A program made the position numbers and the translations under genes. Positions 4,198 through 25,770 of a stretch of DNA of 34,765 nucleotides are shown here, one piece after another. The notes under the pieces were generated by a model that was not told the DNA's origin, made no database searches, and saw only the letters and a list, made by a program, of their open reading frames with translations. How positions within the stretch are numbered: position 1 is the stretch's first letter; every line of letters begins with the position of its first letter. Location: assembly GCA_017621695.1 (NCBI GenBank), contig JAGASP010000061.1, positions 1-34,765 of the forward strand, given 5' to 3'. The DNA is from Clostridia bacterium. Lineage in GTDB: Bacteria; Bacillota; Clostridia; Oscillospirales; CAG-272.

Positions 4198-4273
4198 GAC
4201 CCATTAGCTCAGTCGGTAGAGCACTTGACTTTTAATCAAGGGGTCCGGGATTCGAGTTCCCGATGGGTCACCA
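4198..4273 (+). tRNA. tRNA-Lys (anticodon TTT), CCA encoded
   Basis: A 76-base cloverleaf. The acceptor stem GACCCAT pairs perfectly with ATGGGTC, followed by discriminator A and an encoded CCA (4271-4273). The D-arm is GCTC/GAGC. The anticodon stem CTTGA/TCAAG carries loop CTTTTAA (anticodon TTT, lysine). The T-arm CGGGA/TCCCG carries loop TTCGAGT. The 3' half of this gene recurs as a decayed copy in several intergenic elements of this window. Confidence 0.97.
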
Positions 4274-4314
4274 AAATCAGGAAAGCACTGCATTCGCAGT
4301 GCTTTTTTGATTTT
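4274..4314 (+). terminator. tRNA-Lys terminator hairpin
   Basis: The stem AAAGCACTGC / GCAGTGCTTT has loop ATTC and a T6 run. Flanking AAATCA and TGATTT extend it symmetrically. The same position in the other copies of the repeat element carries a different hairpin (GGAGCACA/TGTGCTCC) with the same AAAATCA/TGATTTT clamp. Confidence 0.9.
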
Positions 4315-4526
4315 GAAGATTGGTTTGGTGAAGCTGAGCCCCGCAAAGCCGTAAGGCTTTGCTCGCGTGCGCAAGATCGATTTTGAATACGTTTTTCTTG
4401 GGCGCACGCAGGGGTTCAGATTCCCGTACGGGTCACCATTACCTGCATATGTCGAACACCTCGGCATATGCAGGTATTTTTCTTTCAAAAATAAGTAGGC
4501 GCGCAGCTCGAGATGAGTTGCGCGCC
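4315..4526 (+). repeat. tRNA-tailed interspersed element, copy 1
   Basis: Three-way-junction fold. The outer stem is GAGCCCC (4336-4342) with GGGGTTC (4411-4417). The first arm is GCAAAGCC/GGCTTTGC (4343-4362). The second arm is GCGTGCGC/GCGCACGC (4365-4409). After it come a T-arm-like TTCAGATTCCCG and GGGTCACCA (4430-4438). Next is a terminator hairpin, and then a 12-bp hairpin (4498-4509 with 4515-4526) preceded by ATAAGTAGG. The stems pair in this copy and in copies 2 and 3 with different bases. The upstream boundary is the real tRNA-Lys. No protein is encoded. Confidence 0.75.
4442..4485 (+). terminator. Terminator hairpin inside repeat copy 1
   Basis: CCTGCATATGTCG (4442-4454) pairs with CGGCATATGCAGG (4462-4474) and is followed by TATTTTTCTTT. 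Copy 2 of the element has an unrelated sequence but an equivalent 14-bp hairpin at the same place. Confidence 0.75.
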
Positions 4527-4549
4527 GTTTCTTTTTCGAAACCATACAT

Positions 4550-4764
4550 TTAGTTCGGGGCGGGAGCATCGTCAGACGCTTTGGACATCTCGGGCCTCCG
4601 GGTCTCAGAAACCTCGGGCTCCTTTTCGGGAATAGTGGTTACCGCCCTATTTTATAAAAAGGGGAAATGGCAGTCAGATCGCCCCAGATGCTGTTCTGAC
4701 CCAGGATGAGGGAGGCCAGGTTGATGTCCTGGGTACGGAACCTTGCATCACGAGCTTCCGTCAT
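4550..4764 (-). pseudogene. Remnant of a secreted-protein or glycosidase C-terminus
   Basis: Starting directly after the stop of the 1051-residue gene and in the same frame, the minus strand reads an ATG-started 41-residue stretch (contains FRTQDINLASLILGQ, then NSIWGDL) ending in a stop. A second frame then continues with a PE-rich stretch (IPEKEPEVSETRRPEM) to a TAA at 4550. The codon use and the Pro/Glu linker resemble the neighbouring secreted enzyme. No ribosome site is visible. It is best read as a frameshifted leftover of another gene's 3' end, possibly a glycoside hydrolase, joined here by deletion. A short real reading frame cannot be excluded. Confidence 0.45.
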
Positions 4765-7700
4765 TCAATTCCGTTCCTTACGCTTACGAGTCAGCAGAGC
4801 GACAGCCATGGGAAGGATCACCACAGAAATCCCTACGTTCAGAACCGAGCCACAGCCCTTCTTGCTTCCCTCCTCGGTTTCGCTCTCGGCGGGAGCCTCG
4901 GTGGACTCTTCGGGGGCCTCGGGCTTCTGGGTCTCGGTTTCGGGGTAGGTGATTTCGGATACGCCGGGGATATAGTTCTGGTAGATGTAGTTCATGCGTC
5001 CCAGAGGAGCAACATCACCGTCGATGTAGAAGTCCTCCATCTCGTCGTAGACGGTATCGCTGTCGGCCAGCTTGAACTCGACGTTGATCTCCTTGTAGCC
5101 CTCAATGCCCAGCATCTCCAGAGGCACGGCAATCATCATTTCTTTATTCTTGACACGATAGGAGACCTCGCCGCAGGACTCGAAACCATACGCTCCGTCG
5201 GTGCCGTTATACTTGGCAACGGTGGTGGTGAACTCGTCCTTTGCCTTGTGATTCAGGATAAAATCGTAGCCGTACCAGCCCGTGGTCTCACGATCGGTGT
5301 TCATGTAGATCTGCATCCACGAGGAGTCGGTATCGAACATGGTGATGTTGTAAGCGGTCTGCACGTAGACGTAGAGATTTTTCGTGTCCGAGGTGACCTT
5401 GGCGGTGATTATATCGTTACGACCCGAGGTGTTTACATAGTTGGTATGGCCAAATCCGATGGCATTGCGGTCTTGAATATCCCCCTCGGTATCCTTGTAG
5501 GTTACGGTCACGTCCTCCCACTGGTCGAATCCGCCCGTGACGTTGATGGGCTTGCGGCTGTCCTGGACAACCACAGGGGCGGTACCCTTGAGTCTTTGGA
5601 CGTTGTAGGCAAGCTGGATGTAGTAATTGTCGAAGTAACCGCCCCGCATCATCTCGCAGTCGCGTGAGAACTCCATGGAGGCGCAGTCGGTAAAGACGAA
5701 GGGTACTCTGTAGTTGTGAGCGGCGGCATTGTTGCCCACGGTCCACTCGTTCCACCCCGTGACTAGGACGTACATGGCATCCGACTCTACAGCGTTGTCG
5801 AACTGCTTCTGGAAATTAATGCCTTGCATGGTCAGGCTCTGATCCGCCTGCCAGGCTTCATAGGAGTCGCGAAGAGTCTGGCGGTAGTCCTGCTTCATAG
5901 CGGACCAGCGATGACCGACGTTATTGGGATTGCTGTAGGAGCGGCCACGGTTGGTGAAGTCGCCATAAAGGGAAGAATCCGAAAAGACCACGGTACCGCT
6001 ATGCTGGGCGACAGAGACGCTGATGGCAGAGCCATCTCCGTTATTTGCTTTAAAAATGCGCTGAGGCCAGTTGAAATCCATCCATGGCCAACCGTTGGTC
6101 ACGGCGGCATCCGTGGGCCATTGCTTTTTCTTGACTGTAAAAAAGCCATTCGCGTCGTAGTTGGTGGGACCGATGATGACGGGCTTGCCGTTGATACGGA
6201 ACCAAGTATCGGGGTACATCCCGGCTTCGTAAATGTCTCTGTACAGTTGGTCGATCACGCCCTCCGAATTTGCATTGGTGTAGAACACCACCTGGGGAGC
6301 ATCAAAGCCCTGCTCGTTGAGCTCGTGGAGGATGCTCATGAGCGCGATGGCATTGTGGGTATAGGTAAAAGCATTGGTTACGTCGAAATACAGAAAGTCG
6401 ATATTCGCCAGAGTCAGAAGCTCGGCGTGCTTGCGCATGACCCACGTATCGTTGCTGTAGTAGTAACCGTAGAGGGGTTCCCCCCACCAGCAAGAGCCGT
6501 TGTACCGATCGCAATCGGCGCTACCCGCCGCCACAGGCCCCAATTCGTCGAGGATCTTCTGCAGGTCAGAGACACCGTTATCGCCGTGTTCGCCCTGACA
6601 GAGGAAGTAGAACAGGCCAACATAGCGCTCCTTCTCTTCTCCGTAGCCGCCCACCTCGCTTGAATCGAACATGGAGCGCCCAAGGTCATCGGTAGCGCCG
6701 TAGCCGCCAAAGAGGTAGTTATCGTTGTTGGGCACCGTATGACTGATGGTATTACCGTTGACCGTGTAGGAAATGGTCACGGTAGTGCCGTCCTCGGATA
6801 CGGTGTATTGGAGAGTTCCCTCGGCGGTATCCTCGGGGGTGGTCTCCATCTCTTTGTAGGTGGGATCGGGCCAGTTGACGTTCAAAGCTGCCTCCAGCTC
6901 CGCGATAGCGGCTTCAGTCTCGGTCAGCTTGCCATAGTTGGAGATATAAGCCTTGCCATCGGCGGACAGGCTGTCGTAGAGGGCGCGGGCGGTGATGACA
7001 GCCTCCTTAGCCTCATCCAGATTCGCCGGAGTGATCTGGGAGGGGAGCTCATCAATGGACAGCAAAGTTATCTGAAGATTGCCCAGCTTCACGCAGACAT
7101 CGTCAACAGCCATATCATTGGCGCGGGTAGCCCAACCAAAGATTGCACCGTCACTACCCAACAGAGTATCGGTATACGCCCCCAACTCGTTGCCCTTAGC
7201 GTCGTACAAGGTGGCGGCGGCATAGCAACCGGCGGAGGAGGCGTGCTTCTCATAGGTCTTGCCCGGATCGGATACCGTGATACGGCACATCAGGGTGTCG
7301 TTGACGTAGATGCAGATCTCCTCGGCGGTGTCGGTGACCCGCAGGTTGTAGGGGTAAGCCGCACCTTCGGGCAGGTCGAACATATGGGTGTTATTTTGGA
7401 CGTAGGCTTCGCATGCGGTCCAGCTCGGGTCGTAGGTCTTAATGTTCACACCCAGCTGATCCGCACGGGGATAGAGCAAAAGACCCGACTGACAGGTAGA
7501 GGTATCGGGGTGACCGTCCGCCTCATAGAAAGCAGGGGCGGTCTTGAGGGCGCGGACGAACACACCGCACTGAGGAACGCTTCCCCCCACCGCCAAAACG
7601 TCCAAGGAGAACTCGTAGGCACCCACGATGGGGGTCTCGTTGTAGACCTGGGTGAAGACATGGGACTGCAGGTGCTTGCCGCCGTCAGCGGTCTCCTGCA

Positions 7701-7920
7701 CCTTGATATAGCCGTCTCCGATACCGTTGGCTTCATAGGCGAAAAAGCCCGACATAGCGGTAGCCGGAATGCCGGCATCCGTCTTGCAGGACTCAAAGTT
7801 CTCGTCCACAACCACGGTCAGCCCTCCGTCATCGATGCTCTTATCAGCAAATGCCACAAAGGGCACCGTGCTGAGGCTGATGGTCAGTGCGAGCAGGAAG
7901 ACAAGTGTTTTTTTGAACAT
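4765..7920 (-). CDS. Large secreted GH99-like glycosidase with CBM9-like domain
   Basis: 1051 residues. A signal peptide (1-25, ending AFA) is followed by a jelly-roll/laminin-G-like domain (about 30-290) and a helical FIVAR-like repeat (about 290-346). A catalytic core follows (about 430-770), with NDTWVMRKHAELL, FDVTN, and WNEW at 723-726. A CBM9-like beta-sandwich (about 795-985), a Pro/Glu/Thr linker, KKGCGS, one membrane helix and RKRKER end the protein. WNEW recalls GH71/GH99-type enzymes, where a Glu here is catalytic, but the usual second Glu is absent (WNEWTVG). It probably cleaves an extracellular glycan at the cell surface. Its ribosome site is AAGGAG, and it lies 32 bases after the GH43 gene, likely one transcript. 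The core is shared with the lipoprotein at 12423-16226. Confidence 0.75.
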   Translation of the reverse strand: MFKKTLVFLLALTISLSTVPFVAFADKSIDDGGLTVVVDENFESCKTDAGIPATAMSGFFAYEANGIGDGYIKVQETADGGKHLQSHVFTQVYNETPIVGAYEFSLDVLAVGGSVPQCGVFVRALKTAPAFYEADGHPDTSTCQSGLLLYPRADQLGVNIKTYDPSWTACEAYVQNNTHMFDLPEGAAYPYNLRVTDTAEEICIYVNDTLMCRITVSDPGKTYEKHASSAGCYAAATLYDAKGNELGAYTDTLLGSDGAIFGWATRANDMAVDDVCVKLGNLQITLLSIDELPSQITPANLDEAKEAVITARALYDSLSADGKAYISNYGKLTETEAAIAELEAALNVNWPDPTYKEMETTPEDTAEGTLQYTVSEDGTTVTISYTVNGNTISHTVPNNDNYLFGGYGATDDLGRSMFDSSEVGGYGEEKERYVGLFYFLCQGEHGDNGVSDLQKILDELGPVAAGSADCDRYNGSCWWGEPLYGYYYSNDTWVMRKHAELLTLANIDFLYFDVTNAFTYTHNAIALMSILHELNEQGFDAPQVVFYTNANSEGVIDQLYRDIYEAGMYPDTWFRINGKPVIIGPTNYDANGFFTVKKKQWPTDAAVTNGWPWMDFNWPQRIFKANNGDGSAISVSVAQHSGTVVFSDSSLYGDFTNRGRSYSNPNNVGHRWSAMKQDYRQTLRDSYEAWQADQSLTMQGINFQKQFDNAVESDAMYVLVTGWNEWTVGNNAAAHNYRVPFVFTDCASMEFSRDCEMMRGGYFDNYYIQLAYNVQRLKGTAPVVVQDSRKPINVTGGFDQWEDVTVTYKDTEGDIQDRNAIGFGHTNYVNTSGRNDIITAKVTSDTKNLYVYVQTAYNITMFDTDSSWMQIYMNTDRETTGWYGYDFILNHKAKDEFTTTVAKYNGTDGAYGFESCGEVSYRVKNKEMMIAVPLEMLGIEGYKEINVEFKLADSDTVYDEMEDFYIDGDVAPLGRMNYIYQNYIPGVSEITYPETETQKPEAPEESTEAPAESETEEGSKKGCGSVLNVGISVVILPMAVALLTRKRKERN

Positions 7921-7952
7921 GGTAAATTCTCCTTTTTAAGAAAGAGTAAGGA

Positions 7953-9605
7953 TCATACTTTCTGAATATCCGCGCCAAAGGATATTCCGCTTTCGTTGTA
8001 TGCGTCCACGGTCACGTAGTAGGTCACGCCTTTAGTCAAACAGTGAACAGTGGCCTCGGTGTTCCCGATAACCTGCCAATGGGTATTCAGCTCGTCGGGA
8101 TGAATGCCCCAGCGGATCATGTAGCCTTGGGCTCCCTCCACGGGGTCCCAGGTGACCGTCATATTCCGCGCATCCTCACAGCGGACAGCCTTGAAGTCGG
8201 GAGCCTTTGCGGGTGCTTCCCCGCCGCCATATCCAAACACACGCAGACCGCTGACGGCGAATTTGCCTTTACCGGGGGTCTCACCGTGGTTGGTAAGCTT
8301 GAGGTAGCGGAGCTTGGTCACCTTGTCCAGCTGGATGTAGTCGTGAGACAGATCGTCTGTGCTGTTCCGTCTATCCACTAGCATGAACCAGTTCTCACCA
8401 TCCTCGGAGGCCTCCAGGGTGTACTTGTAGGCAAAGCCGTGTCCGCGTCCACCTACAGCCTCCACATCCTGATCGGCGAAGTTGATCTGGATGGCGCAAA
8501 CCTCGTAGGCCTTGCCCAGATCCGTCCACAGCCATTCCCCCGCGTTCCCCGTCTTGGCACTCCACCAGGTGCGGAGGCTTTCGTCAAAGGCCTTGTCGTG
8601 GGTATGGCTTTCGTCCAGCGACGAGGAGGCCTTGGCGGTCTTATGTAGGGAGAGGAGGTGCCAGCCTGCATCGGCCATGGTGAAGGGATCCTCGATATCG
8701 TGAGGAAGAAGCATGGGGTAATCCCCCCGGTAGGCGTTGGTGTAGATCAGACCCTTTTCCACCTTGGCGGGGAACAGGCAGAGGCGGCGCTCAAAGATGT
8801 GGTTGACGCTGATGGATACGGTATCCATCTTCCAGTAGTTGCCCTTTTTGTCCGCGAACAGGCACCCGTGACCCGCGCCCCGCATGAATCCCGTAGCCTT
8901 GTAGACAACGGGGCTGTTCTCGCAGTAGGTGAAGGGGCCCATGGGGGAGTCCGAGACCGCACAGCCGTCGCAGTAGCCCGCGTATTCGGTGCCGGGGACG
9001 GCGTAGGTCAGGTAGTATTTCCCGTCGATCTTGTTCATCCACGGGCCTTCCAGATGGGTGCGACCGCCCTCCTTTTCGTTGATGTCTCCCACCCGCTCAA
9101 AGCCACGCACATCACGGTCGCTCTGAAAAATGTCGATGGGGCCTTCCAGCACCTTAGAGGGATCTTGGGGATCCAGCTTACAGACGTGGAGAGGATGGAC
9201 GGGGCTCAGACCCTCGTAGCAGTACAGCGAGCCGTCATCGTCCACGAATAGAGCAGGGTCGTTCCAGTAGTAGGGTCTGCCCACGTTGATCCAGGAGTCG
9301 GGATCGCGGGGATTGTCGGAGTAGAGAATACTGCCACCCTGACAATGCGTAATATACATGCGGTCGCCCGCCACCACAGGCCCGGGGGCAAAAAGGTTGA
9401 ATTCGGGCTGCTTATTCAGATCCACCTCGATGAACTCCCAGTTGGCCAGATCGGAGGACACCCAGTAGCCCGAGCCGTGGGAGGCGAAGAGGTAGTACTC
9501 GTCTTGATACAGCACCACGGCGGGGTCTGCGGACTCACGGGAGCGCATGGGGACTTGGTACTGGTAGTTGATATTGATGGGGTTACATATTGTCTTTACT
9601 TTCAT
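7953..9605 (-). CDS. GH43-family glycosidase with F5/8C and FN3 domains
   Basis: 550 residues. An N-terminal five-bladed propeller carries the GH43 acids: Asp27 in ADPAVV, Asp116 in WNDPALF and Glu186 in HLEGPWM. A discoidin/F5-8C (CBM32-like) domain spans about 320-461 and a fibronectin type III domain about 468-545. GH43 enzymes are mostly arabinofuranosidases, xylosidases or galactosidases; the specificity cannot be read here. No signal peptide is present, so it is probably cytoplasmic and trims imported oligosaccharides, although binding domains are more usual on secreted enzymes. The start at 9605 has GGAG 7 bases upstream; a longer in-frame start at 9653 lacks this. It is upstream of and co-directional with the GH99-like gene. 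Confidence 0.85.
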   Translation of the reverse strand: MKVKTICNPININYQYQVPMRSRESADPAVVLYQDEYYLFASHGSGYWVSSDLANWEFIEVDLNKQPEFNLFAPGPVVAGDRMYITHCQGGSILYSDNPRDPDSWINVGRPYYWNDPALFVDDDGSLYCYEGLSPVHPLHVCKLDPQDPSKVLEGPIDIFQSDRDVRGFERVGDINEKEGGRTHLEGPWMNKIDGKYYLTYAVPGTEYAGYCDGCAVSDSPMGPFTYCENSPVVYKATGFMRGAGHGCLFADKKGNYWKMDTVSISVNHIFERRLCLFPAKVEKGLIYTNAYRGDYPMLLPHDIEDPFTMADAGWHLLSLHKTAKASSSLDESHTHDKAFDESLRTWWSAKTGNAGEWLWTDLGKAYEVCAIQINFADQDVEAVGGRGHGFAYKYTLEASEDGENWFMLVDRRNSTDDLSHDYIQLDKVTKLRYLKLTNHGETPGKGKFAVSGLRVFGYGGGEAPAKAPDFKAVRCEDARNMTVTWDPVEGAQGYMIRWGIHPDELNTHWQVIGNTEATVHCLTKGVTYYVTVDAYNESGISFGADIQKV

Positions 9606-9639
9606 GATGATCTCCTGCAATATGCTATACTGCCTTTTT

Positions 9640-9667
9640 ATTATAGCACACAATTCTTCAATTTGAA
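9640..9667 (-). promoter_or_regulatory. Likely activator-dependent promoter of the GH43-GH99-like operon
   Basis: A good -10 (TATAAT, 9640-9645 on the minus strand) lies 34 bases before the GH43 start. No proper -35 is seen at 17 bp. Instead a small palindrome TTCAA-T-TTGAA (9657-9667) covers that region. A strong -10 with a poor -35 suits a promoter needing an AraC-type activator, which lies just upstream. The palindrome as an operator is inference. Confidence 0.4.
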
Positions 9668-9689
9668 TAATAAAAATGGGACACGATTC

Positions 9690-10537: not shown

Positions 10538-10569
10538 ATACGACTCCTTTTTTCAAAACTGACACTTGT

Positions 10570-10598: not shown

Positions 10599-10672
10599 TA
10601 CTATCCCTTATAAGGAACTGACTGTTTTGTCGTTATATGCATGCCCAACCTCTCATTATAGGAGAACAAGGG

Positions 10673-10957
10673 AATTCGATTTAGTTTGAAGTTGGCTCAC
10701 CAAAATCAAAAAGGAGCACAACTGTGCTCCTTTTTTGATTTTGCCGATATATGGCACAACTCAGAATCCCGCAAGGCCGACAGGCGTTGCTCGCGTGTGC
10801 TCAGTTTCCGGTGTGGAATATATCGTTTGGGCACACGCAGGGATTCAGAGTTCCCGATGGGTCACCATTACCAACCTAAATTGAACCGCTCAATTTAGGT
10901 TGGTTTTTTCTTTGCAAAAAATAAGTAGGTGCGCAGCTCAAAATGAGTTGCGCGCCT
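10673..10957 (+). repeat. tRNA-tailed interspersed element, copy 2 (most complete)
   Basis: Starts with AATTCGATTTAGTTTGAAG and GGCTCACC, a decayed tRNA 3' end. Next is hairpin GGAGCACA/TGTGCTCC (10713-10730) clamped by AAAATCA/TGATTTT. In the three-way junction the outer stem is GAATCCC (10764-10770) with GGGATTC (10840-10846). One arm is GCAAGGCC/GGCGTTGC (10771-10790) and the other GCGTGTGC/GCACACGC (10793-10838). The tail TTCAGAGTTCCCGATGGGT plus CACCA (10844-10867) matches the tRNA-Lys 3' end with one inserted base. A terminator hairpin follows, and a final 13-bp hairpin closes it (10927-10939 with 10945-10957). Confidence 0.8.
10871..10909 (+). terminator. Strong intrinsic terminator inside repeat copy 2
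   Basis: A perfect 14-bp stem CCAACCTAAATTGA / TCAATTTAGGTTGG with loop ACCGC, followed by TTTTTT. Confidence 0.85.
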
Positions 10958-10975
10958 ATCTGCTTTTAGTATTTT

Positions 10976-11070
10976 CTATTTGCCAAAGGCAATCTGGTAC
11001 ATCAATTTTTTATATTCAATCATTCTAGTACGTTTTCGTTGGTGATTCTTACTTGGTTTTGGGTTTTCAT
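10976..11070 (-). pseudogene. Possible short gene remnant
   Basis: A strong ribosome site (GGGAGG, 11079-11084) precedes an ATG at 11070 and 16 codons (MKTQNQVRITNENVLE), ending in an ATGA where a second frame continues for 15 codons (MIEYKKLMYQIAFGK). One frameshift would fuse them into a basic peptide of about 32 residues. I recognise no family. The good ribosome site suggests it was once translated. The rest of 10958-11382 holds a small hairpin (11093-11109) and an orphan promoter, and nothing else I can support. Confidence 0.25.
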
Positions 11071-11309
11071 TTTCTATACCTCCCGATTTTTTGAACAGCT
11101 TCGCTGTTCGCGAGCCATTTCGGCAGGGTCGGGGGAGCATAGGTCGGGAGAGAATCAAGATCATTCCGAGTGAGGTGTGCAGATGTCAACGAGAGGTATT
11201 GCTCGCTTTCAGTACACGAAAAAATATTGCTTGTGGATAAAGAAAAAGCCAAGTATTGCTACTTGACTTTCTCGATAACTATTTCATTTTTCGGCGATAA
11301 TTTTTCACG

Positions 11310-11337
11310 TTGACAGCTGCGAGAGCTATGCTACACT
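11310..11337 (+). promoter_or_regulatory. Orphan promoter-like sequence
   Basis: TTGACA (11310-11315), 16 bp, TACACT (11332-11337), pointing at the 3' end of the convergent AraC gene with no gene of its own. It could be the relic of a lost gene or drive antisense RNA. Confidence 0.35.
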
Positions 11338-11382
11338 GGACACGGACGAAAGGCAAAAATCGGGGCGATCATCATGTCTCAA

Positions 11383-12231
11383 TCATCTTACCATTTCCGG
11401 CTTCTTCCCCATCCGCCTACACTCCGTGGGTGTGATCCCGTAGCATTTTTTGAACATACGATAGAATGTAGAGTAATCCTTAAATCCACAGGATAGAGCC
11501 ACCTCGCTCGCGTGAATTCCATTAACCAGCATATCGCAGGCGCGATCCAAACGGATGTGAAGAACGTATCGCCACAGAGACACGCCCAGACGGTTCTTGA
11601 ACAGGCTGTTGACGTGAACCGTGCTGTAGTGAAAGACGTCAACCACAAAGGAAAGATCCTGTATGTTCGCGTAATTTTGAGAAATATACTCAATGATCTG
11701 ATCGGTCAGGGTACTTTGGCGCGCAACCTCCCTGATCAAGGCATCATATTTTCCGCTGACGGGCGTTCCGTATGCGAGGATTTCACATAAAACGGGAAAG
11801 AGTATGCGGAAAAATTGCTCATGTACGTCTTTCGTACTTGAGATACAAAGCCGCTTGACCGCCGCGTACACGTAGGAAAAGCTCTCGGAGGAGAGCCGGC
11901 GCATACTCAACTCACCTTCTCCGTGGTTATGGAACAATGCATCCACTGCCGTCCGTATCTCCGATTCATCGGGGATGGCTCTCGGGGTAAACTGTACGTA
12001 CAGGTACTCCAACGGTTCGCTGTCCTTGACGACCAGACGATGGGTTACAGAAGGAGGTAAAATCAAAACAGAACCGCGCCCAATGGTGTGCAGGTAATCC
12101 GACACCTCGAATTCCAAAGAGCCTGCAATAGGCAAAAACAGCTCATAAGAATCGTGAGAATGGGAGGAATAGTTTTCGGCCAGGGGATAGGCGTCTTTTC
12201 TTTCGTAGGCGCAGATACCGACGTATTCCAT
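11383..12231 (-). CDS. AraC-family transcriptional regulator (intact)
   Basis: 282 residues. An N-terminal cupin-like sugar-sensing domain has SSHSHDSYELFLPIAGSLEF and LILPPSVTHRL. The C-terminal DNA-binding domain (about 175-280) has two helix-turn-helix motifs, the second carrying the signature SEVALSCGFKDYSTFYRMFK followed by KCYGITP. It is divergent from the large lipoprotein glycosidase, with a 191-base shared regulatory region, so it probably activates that gene when its glycan product is present. The start has AAGGATG upstream. It is the same length as the frameshifted regulator at 9690-10537 but clearly diverged from it. Confidence 0.9.
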   Translation of the reverse strand: MEYVGICAYERKDAYPLAENYSSHSHDSYELFLPIAGSLEFEVSDYLHTIGRGSVLILPPSVTHRLVVKDSEPLEYLYVQFTPRAIPDESEIRTAVDALFHNHGEGELSMRRLSSESFSYVYAAVKRLCISSTKDVHEQFFRILFPVLCEILAYGTPVSGKYDALIREVARQSTLTDQIIEYISQNYANIQDLSFVVDVFHYSTVHVNSLFKNRLGVSLWRYVLHIRLDRACDMLVNGIHASEVALSCGFKDYSTFYRMFKKCYGITPTECRRMGKKPEMVR

Positions 12232-12271
12232 ACAATCATCCTTCCTGAATTTGGTTTGTTTGTTTTTGTCT

Positions 12272-12300
12272 ATTATAACACAAAATCATCGGAATTGCAA
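12272..12300 (-). promoter_or_regulatory. Promoter of the intact AraC gene
   Basis: Minus strand: TTGCAA (12295-12300), 17 bp, TATAAT (12272-12277). It is back to back with the lipoprotein promoter. Confidence 0.75.
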
Positions 12301-12322
12301 TATTTTAGCCAAGCATTTATAA

Positions 12323-12351
12323 TTGGAAAAGTAATTTATTTGTGCTATACT
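12323..12351 (+). promoter_or_regulatory. Promoter of the GH99-like lipoprotein gene
   Basis: TTGGAA (12323-12328), 17 bp, TATACT (12346-12351), giving a leader of about 65 bases with GGGAGG at its end. The divergent AraC promoter lies 23 bp away, so one bound regulator could control both. Confidence 0.7.
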
Positions 12352-12422
12352 ATATAATGAATTGGAATGTTTTTGGAAATTTGAAGATACGAAAGGAAAA
12401 TCAAACATTCCGGGAGGTACAT

Positions 12423-15400
12423 ATGAAGCATCATAAGATCATGGTCACAGGGTTGGCCCTCACCCTCGCTGTCGGTCTTCTCGCAGCTTGCGACTCTGCC
12501 AAGGAGCAGGAGACCACGGCGGAGGCCGCCCCCGTCACGTTGCCCGCGACCGAGTCGGCGGAGCTCACCGAAGCTCCCACTGAGACACCCACCGAAGCCC
12601 CCACTGAGGTCGAGACTCCCGAGCCCGAGACCTACTACTTCGTAGACAATGTCGCCCCCGAGACCGAGTCCCAGGCTCCCGAGACCAAGCCCGATGAGCA
12701 TTACGAGTATACCCAGGACTTCTCCGAGCCCATCAGCGCAAATGATCCGGACTGGACGATCAACGAGATGGCCGATACCTCCAAGGGATACCTGACCGCC
12801 ACGGGCAGTCAGCATCCCTACGTGGCGATCAAGCACAAGGCAAAGGCCGACGTGGTCACGGTCACGGTGGATCTGAAGGCCAACCGCCCCGGGGCGATGC
12901 CCCACGATTCGGGCTATATCGCCCTCCGCCTTCCCAAATATGACGATCAGTTTGCCGCCGTGGGACAGAACGGCATCTGGCTGGCCTTCCAAAGCGGTAA
13001 GGTCGGTATCATCAATACGTGGCCGAATGTCACCCTCTTTGACAGCGGCTTCGATTTCAGTAAGGCACGCGCCGTCACCGTGGAGGATAACCAGACGGAT
13101 AATATCATTTCGGTCTACGTGGACGAGGACGGAACCAAGACCTTTGTCTTCCGCGTAGCCATCACCGACAGCAAGAACGTGACCGTCACCGACAAGGATG
13201 GCGCTGTGAAGACCACCGCCAAGTTCGGCTACGATATCCCCGAGAACGGTTACGTGGCGGTGTGGGCACATCAGGACAACGGAGAGGTGACCTTCGACAA
13301 TCTCAAGGTCAGCTGGACGGTGCCCGGAAATCCCACGACCACTGTGAAAAACAGCTACAAGCAGGACTTTAGTGCCTCCCTTTCGGGAAATAAAGATTGG
13401 AGCCACAACGGCACCGCGGTATTCGAGGACGGCATGGTGGTAGGCACAACCGAGCATTGCTACTTCGATATGACCAAGCGGGTACGTGGCGAGAAGGTCT
13501 ATATCGAGCTGGATCTGCTGGCCGACCGCAAGGGCACCGTGGACAACGTGGCCTCCTACGTGGGTCTGCGTGTGACTCAGCGGGATCAGTTCCGCGCCAC
13601 GGGTCCCGACGGCATCTGGCTGGCCTTCCACGATAACCGTATCGGTCTCATCACGGGCTGGCCGGCCACCAAGATGTACACCTCCGATATCTCCTTCGCG
13701 AATATGCGCCACATCCTCATTGAGGACGATACCGTCAACAACGAGATATCGGTCTACCTCAAGGAGGATGGCAGCAAGCAGCTCATCTGCCGCTTCGTCA
13801 TCCAGAACGAGCACGACGTGACCGTCTTTGACGGAAACGGTAAGTCCAAGATCACCCACACGTTGGGTCACGATCTTGGCAGAGACGGCTTTGTCTGCTT
13901 CTGGGCACCTGCGGGGAACAAGGGCAAGAGCGCCTTTGATAACGTGGAGATCCGCTGGGATAACAAGGTGCGCGCCGAATACACCCCCACGGATCCCGAG
14001 ACCCTCCGCGACCTCTACAACGACACATGGGTAGGCATGGACGACGAGGATCGCTTCGTGGCCTACGGTGCCGATGACGTGGAGGATAAGCTGGTGGGTA
14101 TCTTCTACCAGATCTGGCACGTTCAGACCGGCACCACCTACCCCGATCAGATCCTCTACGATCACCACGCCATCTACCAGCAGGGCGGTCATGCCGCCGT
14201 CAAGGAGGCCTACACCAAGGGCCCAGTGGGCTGGGGACACTACTGGGGTCAGCCCTACTTCGGCTACTACCTCACCAACGATCAATGGGTCATCCGCAAG
14301 CACGCCTCCATGCTCTGCGATATCGGCGTGGATTTCATCTATCTGGACGTGACCAACGGAAATCCCCTGACCACCTCCTACATGGCCATCTTCAAGGAGT
14401 ACCACGCTATGCGTGAAGAGGGTATGGATACCCCCGATATCTGCTTCTTCATGGCGGACAACGCCGATCTGAATCCCCGCGTGTTCGAGGATATCTGGGA
14501 CAACATCTACTCCACGGGTCAGTACAGTGATCTCTACGCCATGTACAAGGGAAAGCCCCTGCTCCTCGGCAACGTGGAGAAGATCGAGGACAAGGCCGCT
14601 CTGGAGACCTTCACCATCCGCCGCTGCTGGGCACTCCGCGAGAACGTGAACGGCGGGCGGGATATGTGGACATGGATGCACGAAACCCCCCAGCCCATCT
14701 CCAGGAACACCGCCACCCGCGAGGAGGAGGAAATGTCCATCTCGGCGGCCATTCTGGCCAACACCTCCTCGGGCCGCAGCTTCTCCAAGGGGCGTCAACC
14801 CGCTCTTCTGACCCTCCCTAATGGAGAAAAGGATATCTTCCAGTTCGAGCTGGAGACCACGGGCAAGGGCATCTTCTTCGCTGAGCAGATGGAGCGCGCC
14901 GCCAAGGCCGACACCTACGTCCTCCTCATCACCGCGTGGAACGAGTGGGGAGCAGGCCGTTGGGAAGGCAATCATCATCCTAAGATCGCCAATACCTACA
15001 TCGACTGGACCTTTGATTACTACGTGGACTGCTTCAATCCCGAATTCTCCCGCGATATCGAGCCTATGACGGGCGGCTTTGGGGATAACTACTACTACCA
15101 GCTGGCTCAGTTCCTCCGTGCCTTCAAGGGCTCCCGTACCGCTCCCGAGGCGGCGGGGCAGACCGAGATGGCACTGGACGCGCCTCTGTCAGTATGGGAC
15201 AGCGTATGGCCCGAGTATATGGACACGCTGGGCGACACCTTCCACCGTGACGCCATGGGCTACTGCAACTTCTTCCACTACACCAACGAGAGCGGCCGCA
15301 ACGACATCATCTCTGCCAAAGTGTCCCGCACCGATGCGTTCACCTACTTCCTGGCGGTCTGCGCCAATACCATCACAGCTCCCGCAGGATCAAACTGGAT

Positions 15401-16226
15401 GAATCTCTTCATCAACACCGACGGCAGCTACGAGACGGGCTGGTACGGTTACGATATCGCCATCAACCGCGACGGTGCCAAGGCCGCGGCGGGCAAGGTC
15501 ACCATCGAGAAGTTTGTGGGCAACGAGTGGAAATTCCAGTATCTCAGCGAGGGCGAGATCAAGGTCAACGGCAATTACCTTGTCATCAAGGTGGACACCG
15601 CTCTGTGCGGTCTGACGGGCGACTTCGACTTCAAGTGGGCGGACAACTCCACCATCGACGGTCAGATCATGCAATTCCTGGATCAGGGCGATGCCGCTCC
15701 CAACGCGCGCTTCAACTACGCCTACCGCGCCGAGGCCTCCAAGGCTACCTTCAACCCCGCCATGGACAGCTACCTGGCAGGTGGCGCGGCCTTTGACGCA
15801 GGCAAGGCCTACATGGCCGCCGAGGAAGGCGTATACCGCCTCTACGATGGCAATACCCACGCCAAGGCCAGGATGCAGGAGGGCCGACTCTTCGCCCCCG
15901 TGACGGCTCTGGGCAACCTGAAGGATGCCGCCGTAACCGTTTCTGCTGATGGCAAGAGCGCGACCTGGACATTCAACGGCAAGACGATTGTCTTCACCGC
16001 CGATTCCACCGAGGTGAAGGTGGGCTACAACATCTGCATCATTCCCGTTGCTCCTTTCGTAGAGAACGGCGTGCTGTACGTGCCCCTCAACGCCGCCGCC
16101 TTCGTGGCCGACCTCCACTACCACAGCAGTCCCGACGGCACCTCCGCCATCCTCAGCCCCAAGGCCGAGGCTCCCGAGGGAGAGGACGGGAGACGGCTGT
16201 TTGAGGCTCTGGAGAGAGCGTTCTGA
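12423..16226 (+). CDS. Large GH99-like glycosidase lipoprotein
   Basis: 1267 residues. A lipoprotein signal has lipobox LAAC (Cys23), so it is anchored outside the membrane. A Thr/Glu/Pro linker (24-93) is followed by two tandem related jelly-roll domains (about 95-302 and 312-517, both with GIWLAF and late FDN.K/E..W motifs). The catalytic core (about 550-910) has NDQWVIRKHASML, LDVTN and WNEW (839-842), then FSRDIEPM. A CBM9-like domain (about 925-1105) and a copper-amine-oxidase-N-like domain (about 1113-1250) end it. The core and CBM9-like parts are homologous to the 1051-residue enzyme at 4765-7920. Substrate unknown. The ATG at 12423 follows GGGAGG by 5 bases. Codon use is strongly C-ending, more so than in the pho region. 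Confidence 0.8.
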   Translation: MKHHKIMVTGLALTLAVGLLAACDSAKEQETTAEAAPVTLPATESAELTEAPTETPTEAPTEVETPEPETYYFVDNVAPETESQAPETKPDEHYEYTQDFSEPISANDPDWTINEMADTSKGYLTATGSQHPYVAIKHKAKADVVTVTVDLKANRPGAMPHDSGYIALRLPKYDDQFAAVGQNGIWLAFQSGKVGIINTWPNVTLFDSGFDFSKARAVTVEDNQTDNIISVYVDEDGTKTFVFRVAITDSKNVTVTDKDGAVKTTAKFGYDIPENGYVAVWAHQDNGEVTFDNLKVSWTVPGNPTTTVKNSYKQDFSASLSGNKDWSHNGTAVFEDGMVVGTTEHCYFDMTKRVRGEKVYIELDLLADRKGTVDNVASYVGLRVTQRDQFRATGPDGIWLAFHDNRIGLITGWPATKMYTSDISFANMRHILIEDDTVNNEISVYLKEDGSKQLICRFVIQNEHDVTVFDGNGKSKITHTLGHDLGRDGFVCFWAPAGNKGKSAFDNVEIRWDNKVRAEYTPTDPETLRDLYNDTWVGMDDEDRFVAYGADDVEDKLVGIFYQIWHVQTGTTYPDQILYDHHAIYQQGGHAAVKEAYTKGPVGWGHYWGQPYFGYYLTNDQWVIRKHASMLCDIGVDFIYLDVTNGNPLTTSYMAIFKEYHAMREEGMDTPDICFFMADNADLNPRVFEDIWDNIYSTGQYSDLYAMYKGKPLLLGNVEKIEDKAALETFTIRRCWALRENVNGGRDMWTWMHETPQPISRNTATREEEEMSISAAILANTSSGRSFSKGRQPALLTLPNGEKDIFQFELETTGKGIFFAEQMERAAKADTYVLLITAWNEWGAGRWEGNHHPKIANTYIDWTFDYYVDCFNPEFSRDIEPMTGGFGDNYYYQLAQFLRAFKGSRTAPEAAGQTEMALDAPLSVWDSVWPEYMDTLGDTFHRDAMGYCNFFHYTNESGRNDIISAKVSRTDAFTYFLAVCANTITAPAGSNWMNLFINTDGSYETGWYGYDIAINRDGAKAAAGKVTIEKFVGNEWKFQYLSEGEIKVNGNYLVIKVDTALCGLTGDFDFKWADNSTIDGQIMQFLDQGDAAPNARFNYAYRAEASKATFNPAMDSYLAGGAAFDAGKAYMAAEEGVYRLYDGNTHAKARMQEGRLFAPVTALGNLKDAAVTVSADGKSATWTFNGKTIVFTADSTEVKVGYNICIIPVAPFVENGVLYVPLNAAAFVADLHYHSSPDGTSAILSPKAEAPEGEDGRRLFEALERAF

Positions 16227-16246
16227 TCCTTAATGGGATAAAAAAG

Positions 16247-16291
16247 CATACACATATATCGCGCCTTCGCATCAAACGGTATATGTGTATG
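16247..16291. terminator. Long hairpin downstream of the lipoprotein gene
   Basis: CATACACATATA (16247-16258) pairs with TATATGTGTATG (16280-16291). A-runs precede it, so on the minus strand it is followed by T-runs; on the plus strand the T-tract is absent. Probably part of the 3' end of the lipoprotein transcript. Confidence 0.5.
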
Positions 16292-16294
16292 TAC

Positions 16295-16546
16295 AATTCG
16301 ATTTGGTTTGAAGTTGGCTCACCAAAATCAAAAAGGAGCACAACTGTGCTCCTTTTTGATTTTGCCGATATATAGCACAACGATGAATCCCGCAAGGCCG
16401 ACAGGCGTTGCTCGCGTGTGCTTAGTTTCCGGTGTGGAATATATCGTTCGGGCACACGCAGGGATTCAGAGTTCCCGATGGGTCACTTGGAAATGATCGG
16501 AGCACAACTGTGCTCCTTTTTGATTTTGCCGATATATGGCACAACT
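16295..16546 (+). repeat. tRNA-tailed interspersed element, copy 3, with a tandem partial unit
   Basis: Near-identical to copy 2 from AATTCGATTTGGTTTGAAG through ATGGGTCAC (16478-16486). The hairpin lies at 16324-16363. The outer stem is GAATCCC (16385-16391) with GGGATTC (16461-16467). The arms are at 16392-16411 and 16414-16421/16452-16459. Directly after the tRNA-like end a second partial unit begins: GGAGCACA/TGTGCTCC (from 16499), then GCCGATATATGGCACAACT to 16546. An inverted copy of the tail (GTGACCCAT) lies at 16634-16642. Confidence 0.8.
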
Positions 16547-21155: not shown

Positions 21156-21180
21156 TTTTGTAACAAATTTATGGTATAAT
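21152..21180 (+). promoter_or_regulatory. Candidate internal promoter before phoU
   Basis: TTGATT (21152-21157, overlapping the pstB stop), 17 bp, TATAAT (21175-21180). The ribosome site GGAG follows the -10 at once and the ATG is only 12 bases past it, so a transcript from here would start near 21187 and lack the ribosome site. Either it gives a nearly leaderless mRNA or it is not used. Confidence 0.5.
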
Positions 21181-21192
21181 GGAGATAATGAT

Positions 21193-21846: not shown

Positions 21847-22511
21847 TGGATGAGATGATTTATATCGTCGAAGACGACGAAGGCATCCGCGAGCTGTACG
21901 AAGGCGCTTTTGAAGGCGTTTTTGCTACCCAAATGTTTGAAAACGGAAAGGACTTCTTCCGTGAATTCACGAAAGTTCGCCCGAATCTTGTGATTCTTGA
22001 TATCATGCTTCCCGATATGGATGGATACACCATTCTCACAAGGATCAGAGAAATGGATGAGAAGATGCCCGTCATTATCGTGAGCGCAAGATCCGACGAG
22101 ATCAGCGCGGTCAAGGGACTGAATAAGGGTGCTGACGATTATATGACCAAGCCCTTCTCGGTGCTTGAGCTGATCGCCCGCGTCAAGACCAACATTCGCC
22201 GCGCAAACCTCTACGTGTCGGCGCAGAAGGGCTTTGTCATCGACAATAACGTTTATAAGATCTTTTACGAGGGACAAGACTTGGGACTTACCTTGAAGGA
22301 ATTCAAGCTGCTTAAGATGCTGATTACGCGCGCAGGCGTTACCATCGAGCGCGAGGAGCTGTTCCGTGAGGTTTGGGGAGAGAGCTATATGGGCGAAACA
22401 AGAACGCTGGATATACATATCTCTCAGCTCCGTGATAAGATCACCGAATGTGGAGGGGGCGATGTGATCGTTACCGTGCGCGGTATCGGCTATCGCTTCG
22501 CGGGAGAATAG
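21846..22511 (+). CDS. PhoB/PhoP-type response regulator
   Basis: 221 residues. The receiver domain has acidic pocket EDD (9-11), phospho-acceptor Asp52 in LDIMLPDMDG and Lys102 in MTKPF. The OmpR-type winged helix (about 125-220) ends VRGIGYRFAGE. By position it is the phosphate regulator and the likely binder of the TTTACA/CTTACA repeats at 17628-17668. It overlaps phoU, so both are translated together; phoR follows 3 bases later. Confidence 0.9.
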   Translation: MDEMIYIVEDDEGIRELYEGAFEGVFATQMFENGKDFFREFTKVRPNLVILDIMLPDMDGYTILTRIREMDEKMPVIIVSARSDEISAVKGLNKGADDYMTKPFSVLELIARVKTNIRRANLYVSAQKGFVIDNNVYKIFYEGQDLGLTLKEFKLLKMLITRAGVTIEREELFREVWGESYMGETRTLDIHISQLRDKITECGGGDVIVTVRGIGYRFAGE

Positions 22512-22514
22512 CTT

Positions 22515-24221
22515 ATGAAAAAAAAGATATTTTATAAGGTATTTGCCGCAGCGCTTACCTGCGTTCTTCTGATGTTCGTGTTCGGCATCATTGCCGTTCA
22601 TATGAATACGGACAATATTGTAAATGAACGGTTAAAGGAAGAAACAGAGCTTGCCGCCACGCTGATGAATGAACAGAGCGACTTTGCTGTATTTAATAAA
22701 TACTCGGACAACCTCGAGCTTCGTATTACGATTTTCGATACAGACGGTAACGTTCTTTACGAGAGCGACACAAAAGCGCCTCTTGAAAATCACAGAGACC
22801 GCGAGGAAATCAAAAACGCCCTTGAAGGCAAGCCCGATACCGTGGAAAGGTATTCAGAAACCTTCAAGTGCGATATGACCTATTATGCAACAAAAACAGC
22901 GCTTTCGGACGGTACCGAGGTTATTCTCAGGCTTGCGATAAGAAGCAGCCATGTTATTACGCCTTACTTTACCGCTATCATTCCGCTTCTCATTCTCGTT
23001 CTTGCCGTATCCCTGATTCTTTCCTTTGTCCTCTCAACCGTTATATCCCGTAACGTTTCATCTAAGGTGACAGAGATCGGGGAGAGTCTAAAGAGCTTGA
23101 ACGAAGGACAGTATGCACCGATCAAGACCGATATGAGTGAGCCGGAGCTGTTCGGGGTTCTGAATCAAATCAACGAGTTGAACGCGAACATTCACAGCCA
23201 CATCCGTATCGCGGACGGCGAGAGGGTGAAGCTGAACGCCGTGCTTGATAACGTATCTCAAAGCATTATCGCTCTTGACAAATCAAAACATATCGTTTTC
23301 GCAAATAAGCGTGCGTTTGAAATGTTTAACGGAACGCACCACGACATTGGCAGAGATCTTGTGTTTCTGATTGAAAAGCTGCCTGTTTACGAGCAGATCA
23401 CCGAGCATATCGGGGAGAATTTCGCTTTTAACTGTGCTTACGACGATAAATATCTGTCGGTCGTGATTACTAAGGTGACAAACGAGGTCATCTGCGACGA
23501 TATTTCCGCGATTATTATCGTTACGGATATTACGAAGGAAAAGCTGATTGAGAAGCAAAAGAGTGATTTCTTTGCCAACGCATCGCACGAGCTCAAAACG
23601 CCCATCACAGTTATGCAGGGCTTTGCCGAGGTGCTGATGAACAAGGAGGGCATGGACGATACCTCCCAAAAACAGCTTGGACGGATTTATAAGGAATGTC
23701 TTAGGCTCGGCTCTTTGATCTCAGATATGCTGATGCTTTCCAAGATCGAAAGCGGAGATGCACCCAAGAGAGCGCTTTCCGAGGTATCTCTTGAGGATAT
23801 TGCAAAGGAGGTTCTCGACGGTCTTTCCGAGAAGACACAAAGCAGAAATATCACCGCAAGCATCGTTGGCTCTGCTAAGATATGCGCCGATCAAGCCATG
23901 ATTTTTGAGCTTATCGAAAATCTTGTTTCCAACGCCATCAAGTATAACAAAGACGGCGGCTCGGTAACGGTTTCCATGACCGAAACGGATACAGGTGTAA
24001 GCCTTGCGGTCGAGGATACGGGCATCGGTATTGAAAAAGAGCATCTGCCGCGCCTTTGCGAACGCTTCTACCGCGTGGATAAATCCCACTCCAAGCGTAT
24101 CGGCGGCACGGGACTTGGCCTTGCCATCGTCAAGCACATCTGCGCCATTTCGGATGCGGAGCTTTCCATCGAAAGCGAATTCGGTGTCGGTACGACCGTT
24201 ACGGTTGCATTTCGGAAATAG
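22515..24221 (+). CDS. PhoR-type sensor histidine kinase
   Basis: 568 residues. Membrane helices at about 8-28 and 151-178 flank an extracellular sensor of about 120 residues. A linker and PAS domain (about 235-345) follow. The HisKA domain has His358 in ASHELKTP. The ATPase domain (about 450-568) has ENLVSNAIKYN, EDTGIGI and GTGLGLAIV boxes. It phosphorylates the adjacent response regulator when phosphate is low. Ribosome site GGGAG. The transcript ends in repeat copy 4. Confidence 0.92.
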   Translation: MKKKIFYKVFAAALTCVLLMFVFGIIAVHMNTDNIVNERLKEETELAATLMNEQSDFAVFNKYSDNLELRITIFDTDGNVLYESDTKAPLENHRDREEIKNALEGKPDTVERYSETFKCDMTYYATKTALSDGTEVILRLAIRSSHVITPYFTAIIPLLILVLAVSLILSFVLSTVISRNVSSKVTEIGESLKSLNEGQYAPIKTDMSEPELFGVLNQINELNANIHSHIRIADGERVKLNAVLDNVSQSIIALDKSKHIVFANKRAFEMFNGTHHDIGRDLVFLIEKLPVYEQITEHIGENFAFNCAYDDKYLSVVITKVTNEVICDDISAIIIVTDITKEKLIEKQKSDFFANASHELKTPITVMQGFAEVLMNKEGMDDTSQKQLGRIYKECLRLGSLISDMLMLSKIESGDAPKRALSEVSLEDIAKEVLDGLSEKTQSRNITASIVGSAKICADQAMIFELIENLVSNAIKYNKDGGSVTVSMTETDTGVSLAVEDTGIGIEKEHLPRLCERFYRVDKSHSKRIGGTGLGLAIVKHICAISDAELSIESEFGVGTTVTVAFRK

Positions 24222-24253
24222 GCATTTGGCCTGTACAACGCATAGCTTCACAA

Positions 24254-24410
24254 AATTCGATTTGGTTTGTAGTTGACTCACCCAAATCAAAAAGGAGCAC
24301 AACTGTGCTCCTTTTTTGGTTTTGCCGATATATGGCACAACAATGAAACCCACAAGGCCGACAGGCGTTGCTCGCGTGTGCTCGGTTTCCTGCATGGGAT
24401 AGTGTATGGG
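24254..24410 (+). repeat. tRNA-tailed interspersed element, copy 4 (3' part lost)
   Basis: Begins AATTCGATTTGGTTTGTAG, then the decayed tRNA end GACTCACC. The terminator hairpin GGAGCACA/TGTGCTCC has its clamp changed to AAATCA/TGGTTT, still pairing through a T-G wobble. The 5' strands of the three-way junction follow: GAAACCC (24345-24351), ACAAGGCC/GGCGTTGC (24352-24371) and GCGTGTGC (24374-24381). Similarity fades near 24410, so the closing strands and tRNA-like tail are missing. It serves as the phoR terminator. Confidence 0.75.
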
Positions 24411-24491
24411 GAATGCTAAACTATCAGGAAACGATTTTTCTTTTGCTTGAAAAAATCAACCGTCGGTTCAATTGGGTAACTTATCCGTCTC

Positions 24492-24520
24492 TTGCAAGAA
24501 GTGTACTTATGGTGTATAAT
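24492..24520 (+). promoter_or_regulatory. Promoter of the HTH-TPR gene
   Basis: TTGCAA (24492-24497), 17 bp, TATAAT (24515-24520); the ATG lies 49 bases downstream with GAGG before it. Confidence 0.8.
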
Positions 24521-24568
24521 ATGCGCAGAAGCACCGGTGATTCAATTCATGAAAACGAGGTATACAAT

Positions 24569-25681
24569 ATGCAACTTTACATTGGCAATAATATCAAACG
24601 CCTTCGCAAACAAAAAGGCATTACCCAAGAGACGCTTGCGGAGCGTATGCACGTTTCAATCGCGGCTGTTTCCAAGTGGGAGCGAAATGAAGCACTTCCC
24701 GATATCAGTATGGTGCTTCCGTTGGCATCCTATTTCGGCGTCTCTACCGACGAACTGCTTGGACTGGATGCGGTCAAAGCCGAAGAAAGAATCCAAGAGA
24801 TCATGAACGAACGGAACAGGCTGTGCGCACTTGGCAAAGAGCGTGAGGCTTTCGATCTGATCGTGGCTGCTTACGAGGAATTCCCCAACGATTGGAGAAT
24901 CGTCGAGGAATATATGTGGAAGCTCTACTATGATCCGAATTGCGAGGAGCCTTACGGTCACGAAGTACACAAGGAGGAGTTGTACCGCCTGTGTGAGCGG
25001 GTGCTGGATGAGTGTACGGTCGATCAAGTACGCTACTCCGCGCTTTCGATTCTTGGAGGTCTATATGCTCTGGATGGTCGGCTTGACAAGGCGATCGAGA
25101 CAGCCAAACGCTTTCCTACGTTGCTCCATACACAGGAAAAGGAATTGCAAGGATGCTATGAAAAGGGTTCGGAAGAATGGTGGTCATACACTCGCGCAGG
25201 CTTGGTGGAATTTACTGAGTATCTGATGGTGGATATCCGCAATATGGCACTGGCTACGGAAGACCCGCATGAATCCATTCGTATTTTGAAAAAAGCGATC
25301 GCTTTGATCGAACTGGTATTCGATGATGGGGACTTTTGCTTCTGGAATTATCATTTGGCCGAACTGCATATCTGGATTGCCCATCGGTATGTGCGCGTTC
25401 AAAACTTGGATGCGGCTTTGGAGAACTTTGAGAAGGGCTTGCAGTATGCCAAAGCCTATGATGATCTCTCTCAAACCGCCGTGCATTCATCCTTCCTTGT
25501 TCGCGGAAATATGTTTGATGCAAGCAAGATCAATTCCGGCACGGAGGAAAACGACGTGGCGCGAGAGCTTGGGTATCTCCTTCAAAGCGGTTCGTATCAG
25601 GAATTGAAGGATATGCCGCAAATGCAAGATATCATTGCGAAATATGAGCCCTTTGTTGGAAAGAAAAAGGATTTCTCGTAA
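24569..25681 (+). CDS. Cro/CI-type HTH regulator with helical TPR-like domain
   Basis: 370 residues. The N-terminal XRE helix-turn-helix (about 5-60; GITQETLAERMHVSIAAVSK, then DELLGLD) is followed by about 300 residues of helical hairpins (AALENFEKGLQYAKAYDDLS and similar), resembling TPR repeats of peptide-sensing or stress regulators. It binds DNA and probably a peptide or partner protein; no target is evident. It stands alone with its own promoter and terminator, between repeat copies 4 and 5, and may move or be exchanged as a unit. Confidence 0.85.
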   Translation: MQLYIGNNIKRLRKQKGITQETLAERMHVSIAAVSKWERNEALPDISMVLPLASYFGVSTDELLGLDAVKAEERIQEIMNERNRLCALGKEREAFDLIVAAYEEFPNDWRIVEEYMWKLYYDPNCEEPYGHEVHKEELYRLCERVLDECTVDQVRYSALSILGGLYALDGRLDKAIETAKRFPTLLHTQEKELQGCYEKGSEEWWSYTRAGLVEFTEYLMVDIRNMALATEDPHESIRILKKAIALIELVFDDGDFCFWNYHLAELHIWIAHRYVRVQNLDAALENFEKGLQYAKAYDDLSQTAVHSSFLVRGNMFDASKINSGTEENDVARELGYLLQSGSYQELKDMPQMQDIIAKYEPFVGKKKDFS

Positions 25682-25690
25682 TACCACTTT

Positions 25691-25708
25691 GCCCCGCTTC
25701 TGCGGGGC
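25691..25708 (+). terminator. Hairpin after the HTH-TPR gene
   Basis: GCCCCGC / GCGGGGC with loop TTCT, then ATTCTATAT; the T-tract is weak. It occupies the place of the terminator hairpin of the repeat element. Confidence 0.6.
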
Positions 25709-25710
25709 AT

Positions 25711-25770
25711 TCTATATGTGGTACAACTCAGAATCCCACATGGCCGACAGGCGTTGCTCGCGTGTGCCCA
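25711..25770 (+). repeat. tRNA-tailed interspersed element, copy 5 (core fragment)
   Basis: About 60 bases matching the centre of copies 2 and 3: GTACAACTCAGAATCCC (outer 5' strand GAATCCC at 25731-25737), ACATGGCC/GGCGTTGC (25738-25757) and GCGTGTGC (25760-25767). The closing strands and tRNA-like tail are absent. Confidence 0.7.

Follow-up and report, generated by a model that had tools for sequence, protein, structure and literature searches.

What is the sequence that stands directly behind the only tRNA gene of this window, and why does it recur four more times further along the same strand? The window, that is, the whole stretch of 34,765 nucleotides analysed here, is the entire contig C33 of a 2.62-Mb draft genome of a Clostridia bacterium (hereafter the source genome). 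The first-pass annotation had seen in it a non-coding interspersed element in five copies of shared layout and equal orientation, bounded by tRNA-Lys 3′ ends, had inferred an origin by duplication or integration at such an end, and had known of no named family with this design. The feature is real and reaches far beyond the window, and it consists of repeat units, probably mobile, that follow the end of the host tRNA. The repeats are recovered by blastn at all five sites, always on the plus strand, at 4264-4526, 10673-10956, 16295-16486, 24254-24401 and 25714-25770; with copy 2 as the reference, and thus its own match, copy 1 gives an E value of 4.4e-30, copy 3 of 7.1e-85, copy 4 of 4.6e-52 and copy 5 of 2.2e-16.

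The tRNA end of copy 1 belongs to an intact tRNA-Lys(TTT) at 4198..4273 on the plus strand (ARAGORN, Rfam and the sequence itself agree on it), which is the single tRNA that ARAGORN finds in the window, and apart from which Rfam reports nothing there at gathering threshold. Its last bases, GAGTTCCCGATGGGTCACCA (4254-4273, plus strand), make up the stretch of which units of this kind carry a second copy. The CCA of this gene is followed at once by a complete unit of 165 bp (4273..4437, plus strand; sequence, folding and covariance model), composed of a terminator hairpin with the AAAATCA/TGATTTT clamp described from the outset, a three-way-junction core, GGTTC and one extra base. The core is matched with 134 bits at 4314-4437 by R1, a covariance model built from 13 cores. 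The distal end (4418..4438, plus strand) comprises an inserted A at 4418 and the 3′ end GATTCCCGTACGGGTCACCA at 4419-4438, and it is here that the initial description as tRNA-Lys has to be given up, as CCCGTACGGGTCACC is of the tRNA-Glu(CTC) type, an end known from relatives, on which this assignment is based. Behind it follow a second terminator hairpin and a third hairpin (4439..4526, plus strand; sequence and repeat comparison), a pair that in relatives lies 3′ of tRNA-Glu genes devoid of a unit. A trpB motif (RF04312) at 4444-4537 scored 40.9 bits against a cut-off of 59 over what are two successive terminator hairpins, and was set aside.

The remaining copies, all on the plus strand, have no tRNA gene in front of them. 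Copies 2 and 3 are near-complete and intergenic, and each is preceded by a left end of 29 nt. In copy 2 the left end AATTCGATTTAGTTTGAAGTTGGCTCACC (10673..10701) leads into the unit at 10702..10866 (R1, 107 bits), whose inserted A at 10847 and Lys-type 3′ end from 10848 agree with the original reading of a tRNA-Lys end interrupted by one base, and a second terminator and third hairpin follow at 10867..10956. In copy 3 the left end (16295..16323) precedes a unit at 16324..16487 (R1, 104 bits) with the Lys-type distal end GGGTCACT, its last base changed, and an extra fragment with a terminator and the start of a core is detected by repeat comparison at 16499..16546. Of copy 4 (24254..24401), which is truncated, there remain the left end, the terminator and the 5′ portion of the core, without the distal tRNA-like end, and copy 5 (25714..25770) is a core fragment of 57 bp without terminator or left end; the full layout is thus not common to all five copies. 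In copies 1-3, the three-way junction folds better than shuffled sequences (z of -5.7, -6.2 and -3.5 for copies 1, 2 and 3, respectively). The left end of copies 2-4, AATTCGATTTRGTTTGAAGTTGGCTCACC, had been taken for a decayed tRNA-Lys end; it is actually a conserved element, which relatives also have, followed by different interiors or by no interior at all, and whose sequence in common with the tRNA goes little beyond TTCGA and CTCACC. No gene-like reading frame covers the units, so that they can be considered non-coding, with some degree of judgement: the frames of at least 80 aa that overlap them are antisense or apparently long-start versions of neighbouring genes.

In two contigs of the source genome, the window (10673-16546 and 24254-25770) and G000:C25 (at 9824, 18856 and 44105), several dispersed copies are gathered on one strand, a grouping that may be a hint of local spread.

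A lack of further copies in related genomes would have refuted the first-pass annotation, but they do exist, in 10 of 58 relatives by blastn, and R1 finds matches in 12 of 32 genomes, with units behind tRNA genes; one of these matches, in G019, coincides in part with a tRNA gene and does not count as a unit. Within the genus, units stand, often in tandem, behind intact tRNA-Glu, -Lys, -Arg, -Val and -Ser and behind tmRNA, and beyond it behind a tRNA-Leu of another genus and a tRNA-Glu of another family of the same order; tandem arrays are found behind Lys, Glu, Arg, Ser, Val, Gly, tmRNA and others. A pattern made of a tRNA T-loop, 130-160 nt, and a second T-loop with one inserted A or T occurs in 72 of 395 genomes sampled from the family, which are gut bacteria, and in 24 of its 71 genera, the other 323 genomes being without it in this strict form; the reversed control pattern gives 0 matches. 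One of the genomes drawn for the family bears a name that NCBI files under Bacteroidota. In a class-wide sample the pattern is present in one of 291 genomes, which is the source genome, the sole member of the family sampled, and the reversed one is again absent. A scan of named genomes yielded at least 114 stretches, and among the 80 matches listed 55 bear Clostridia-type names and 25 lie elsewhere.

In L249 (G000:C127, minus strand) several tandem units follow an apparent 3′ half of tRNA-Ser where ARAGORN reports no tRNA, as if the gene had been split by a larger element. In L005 (G026:C103, 1640-1980, minus strand) a different repeat, ending in GGCGAGATTCCCGT, splits a left end with apparent duplication of about 20 of its bases, and similar pieces occur in L026 and L035. 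The latter (G101:C9) and L021 (G007:C141), from two genera, have near-identical upstream DNA and left end with different interiors, one of them with a tRNA-Glu end inverted after the terminator. The pattern is also found in nine viral contigs. Two of these (IMG/VR; L257, 1-600, and L262, 11000-11300) are near-identical and contain the 3′ half of a tRNA-Lys beside reading frames that we read as phage-like, with a unit-like core just beyond whose distal copy matches 6 nt only, an arrangement that resembles the insertion of a prophage at the anticodon loop in a tRNA gene already bearing a unit; in the remaining seven there is no host match beyond the pattern itself.

The distal end of most units varies with their host tRNA. 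The loci examined contain 135 distinct pattern matches, for 103 of which there is a usable tRNA, and in 80 of these 103 the distal copy matches its host over at least 9 nt from base 57, with a mean run of 16.65 nt against the own host and 6.85 nt against other tRNAs with the same first six bases. The other 23 do not match, 12 differing already at base 59 and 11 diverging after 6-8 nt. Leaving aside L093 (an apparent duplicated tRNA-Phe fragment) and L101 (from Bipolaricaulota, treated apart), 78 units are kept, which stand behind 26 tRNA species and have a period of 144-171, with a median of 165. Their general order is a terminator hairpin, a hairpin core ending in GGTTC, one extra base (A in 51, T in 27) and the copy of the host from T-loop to CCA, complete in 41 units and partial in 37; an inverted repeat of at least 9 bp follows the CCA of the tRNA in 69 of the 78, and in none of the shuffled sequences. 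Looked at from the side of the genes, 92 of 198 distinct tRNA genes have a copy of their own end downstream, a proportion that is not a genome-wide rate, because the loci were picked for carrying units, and for 78 of these genes the first copy comes at 124-163 nt behind the tRNA. These tRNA-to-copy distances disclose no long, self-mobilising version among the 198 genes, the only first copy farther than 340 nt being a dispersed unit at 4815 nt. Integron-like cassettes (attI/attC), which were considered for the varied interiors behind one left end, were given up, since the distal end goes with the host tRNA. Copy 1 of the window, with a Glu-type end behind tRNA-Lys, is an exception that requires a later exchange between units.

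The core covaries. R1 has 91 matches in 78 chosen loci, and in their alignment, which is fitted to its own structure and has related rows, 92.7% of the cells are paired, both partners change in 23 of 26 pairs, and there are 483 double-change cells against 42-100 with slid partners. The outer stem (helix 1), formed by the tRNA-end copy and an upstream arm, has 87.1% of its cells paired and changes on both sides in 9 of its 12 pairs. With six antisense echoes excluded, the base of the 5′ arm that faces the host-coded base 59 is complementary to it in 78 of 82 rows, where 27.8 would be expected by permutation, and the base facing the inserted base in 47 of 73, where 30.0 would be expected; a strict motif test of the 5′ arm, applicable to 12 of the 80 units, finds complementarity in 11 of the 12 for base 59 and in 10 for the inserted base. 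On the tRNA-sense strand G.T cells outnumber A.C cells (64 vs. 34), which points to this as the strand that folds. Cores of a second class, in which a short hairpin follows a long stem, covary at 8 of 9 predicted pairs in 17 units picked by eye. When the stretch after the terminator is compared with the entire reverse complement of the tRNA end, the unit's own tRNA does better than others at the 5% level in just 10 of the 80 units.

How the units came to stand behind so many tRNAs can be approached through the sites that lack them. The tRNA-Glu(CTC) site is filled in G002 and empty in G011, a different species and the sole pair aligned; the two agree up to GGGTCACCA and then again from the original terminator, and their blast blocks overlap by 29 bases, which is the duplicated end. 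There are further empty sites at tRNA-Glu in G000 and G004 and at tRNA-Lys in G010. In G007, the units behind Glu(CTC) and Glu(TTC) are identical at 156 of 165 bases and each distal copy has the base of its own host, a transfer between isoacceptors that looks recent; Gly(CCC) and Gly(TCC) of one genome have cores that agree to 91%, and each of these carries the end of its own host; this is the one pair of the kind that exceeds 80% in the set of 80 units. A duplication of the target end fits these isoacceptor pairs, and a crossover that carried a tRNA end along would not. Two observations, that a site can be filled or empty and that one core stands behind two isoacceptors, speak for units that are mobile and duplicate the end of their target. 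The origin first proposed is supported, mainly by the relatives (the filled and empty tRNA-Glu sites, the host-matching ends behind 26 tRNA species and the tandem arrays), and its tie to tRNA-Lys is lost.

The design itself already has a precedent, and the statement that no named family possesses it does not stand: the tyrT repeats of E. coli (RtT, Rfam RF00391) have the same layout. At tyrT/tyrV of E. coli K-12 each of the two tRNA-Tyr genes has units behind it whose end repeats the last 19 nt of the tRNA; this copy pairs with an upstream arm, and Rfam gives four RtT matches there. The units and RtT are alike in layout and not by model match, given that the RtT model has no match in the window or in 20 unit-bearing loci, and R1 none in tyrT of K-12 or in the Bipolaricaulota loci. 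What RtT/RttR/tpr shares with the Clostridia units is a position distal to the tRNA, a partly tandem arrangement and an end copy that closes an outer stem with an upstream arm; it differs in being attached to one tRNA species at tyrT/tyrV and in that no terminator is seen between tRNA and unit, whereas the Clostridia units stand behind 26 tRNA species and tmRNA, and have their own terminator, GGTTC with an extra base, and dispersed copies. A third instance is a Bipolaricaulota metagenome-assembled genome (G704; L297, L298 and L299), where three tRNA-Arg genes (TCG, CCG and CCT) have one unit each, with a terminator, a segment complementary to the end of the tRNA, hairpins, GGTTC with one base and a partly matching end copy; one of them folds with a z of -5.6 and two of the cores look alike. 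A search of the literature, with most subscription journals outside it, shows no paper on this element among the matches listed.

Starting from the anatomy, host-matching ends, covariation, filled and empty site and tandem arrays that are observed, the reading that we favour, with a confidence somewhat better than even, is that the units are non-coding, non-autonomous repeat elements that insert behind the CCA of tRNA and tmRNA genes and duplicate the end of their target. Elements of about 165 bp would enter directly behind the CCA, each supplying its own terminator, so that the tRNA transcript would still end properly; the insertion, through a staggered break or template switching, would leave at the far end a second copy of the target's final 19-20 bases, which extend from base 57 in the T-loop to CCA, and the closing stem of the core would then span the junction into the duplicated end. 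What is recognised may be the folded tRNA-sense strand. The dispersed copies of the window would derive from such elements, having been taken to other intergenic sites along with a left end that resembles a tRNA end. Duplication alone is insufficient to explain that the 5′ arm tracks the host base, and this counts against it. So do the Glu-type end of copy 1 behind tRNA-Lys, the 23 of 103 pattern matches that disagree with their host, the 37 of 78 units with a partial copy, the reliance on a single aligned filled/empty pair from two species, the fitted R1 alignment with its related rows, and the fact that none of the enzyme families searched is tied to the units.

A different origin would be that the units are scars or satellites of islands integrated by a tyrosine recombinase, with crossover in the T-loop and the distal copy being the displaced tRNA end (attR), the integrase acting in trans. 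The resemblance is considerable: islands and prophages at tRNA genes also show a direct repeat of the 3′ end, occur in tandem and use tmRNA as a target (PMC4383910 and PMC1762012), the duplicated block of the units likewise runs from T-loop to 3′ end, T-loop crossover is documented for phage Ms6 (PMC1762012), the T-stem region is used by many islands (PMC4383910), and tyrosine recombinases (PF00589) are present in all 12 unit-bearing genomes searched. The source genome, however, has just two PF00589 proteins; when 22 such proteins are clustered, one of the two falls in a cluster that spans 10 genomes, which we take to be Xer-like, and the other in a cluster of six. Moreover, the units, at 144-171 bp (about 165 bp) and without an integrase gene, have a conserved and covarying core, and the extra base lies inside the T-loop, where crossover needs identity (Ms6, PMC1762012). 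An island should also supply one of its ends, but here the tRNA's own end stands on both sides, copy 1 of the window excepted, and the core has moved between isoacceptors without the end of the other tRNA. We therefore regard this origin as unlikely, and slightly less probable still is that of a functional, RtT-like structured RNA, produced by read-through from the tRNA and maintained by selection, with arrays arising by tandem duplication and ends by selection for pairing. The strong covariation, the excess of G.T over A.C cells (64 vs. 34) on the tRNA-sense strand, the 5′ arm that follows base 59 of the host and the annotated small RNA RttR, of the same design, in E. coli K-12 all speak for such an RNA; it is difficult to reconcile with the terminator-like inverted repeat that separates tRNA and core in 69 of the 78 units, with a strict pattern missing in 323 of 395 genomes, and with the truncated and dispersed copies that are common in the source genome.

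Other mobile elements also make use of tRNA genes. Casposons duplicate their target at the 3′ end of a tRNA gene, and retrotransposons of yeast and Dictyostelium (Ty3, TRE) use tRNA genes as safe landing sites. It might be thought, then, that the units are retroposons or non-autonomous elements of casposon (Cas1) or IS200/IS605 (Y1) type, and indeed a tRNA 3′ end duplicated over about 20 nt is reminiscent of casposons, as hairpins near both ends are of IS200/IS605. Yet among the 12 unit-bearing drafts Cas1 is found in only three, and no terminal inverted repeats were noticed in the units; RVT_1 is found in one, and the units, as opposed to Ty3 and TRE, are non-coding; and Y1_Tnp is found in seven (six over the cut-off) and not in G004, G009, G010, G463 or G007, the last being the genome in which transfer between isoacceptors looks recent. 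Taken together, such elements are a very improbable source, with the proviso that absences are weak evidence, the genomes being drafts. In these 12 genomes no member of RVT_1, Cas1, Y1 or PF00589 is tied to the units.

Beyond the favoured reading of target-end duplication, it could be supposed, although with somewhat less than even confidence, that the units represent a widespread class of bacterial, non-coding mobile elements for which almost any tRNA or tmRNA gene is a safe landing site, and which recognise the universal T-loop and CCA, duplicate the 3′ end and restore the terminator there, that the tyrT repeats would be an isolated member of it, and that the joining would fall to an enzyme or host pathway which is not yet known to act at such sites. 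For decades the E. coli repeats distal to tyrT have passed for a peculiarity of a single tRNA locus; should the same design accompany dozens of tRNA species as well as tmRNA in the Clostridia of the gut, and recur in Bipolaricaulota, it would be a general kind of element. The link between base 59 and the 5′ arm offers a handle with which to distinguish a folded RNA from a folded single-stranded DNA, and the coexistence of filled and empty sites makes the gain and loss of these units testable in strain-level metagenome data.
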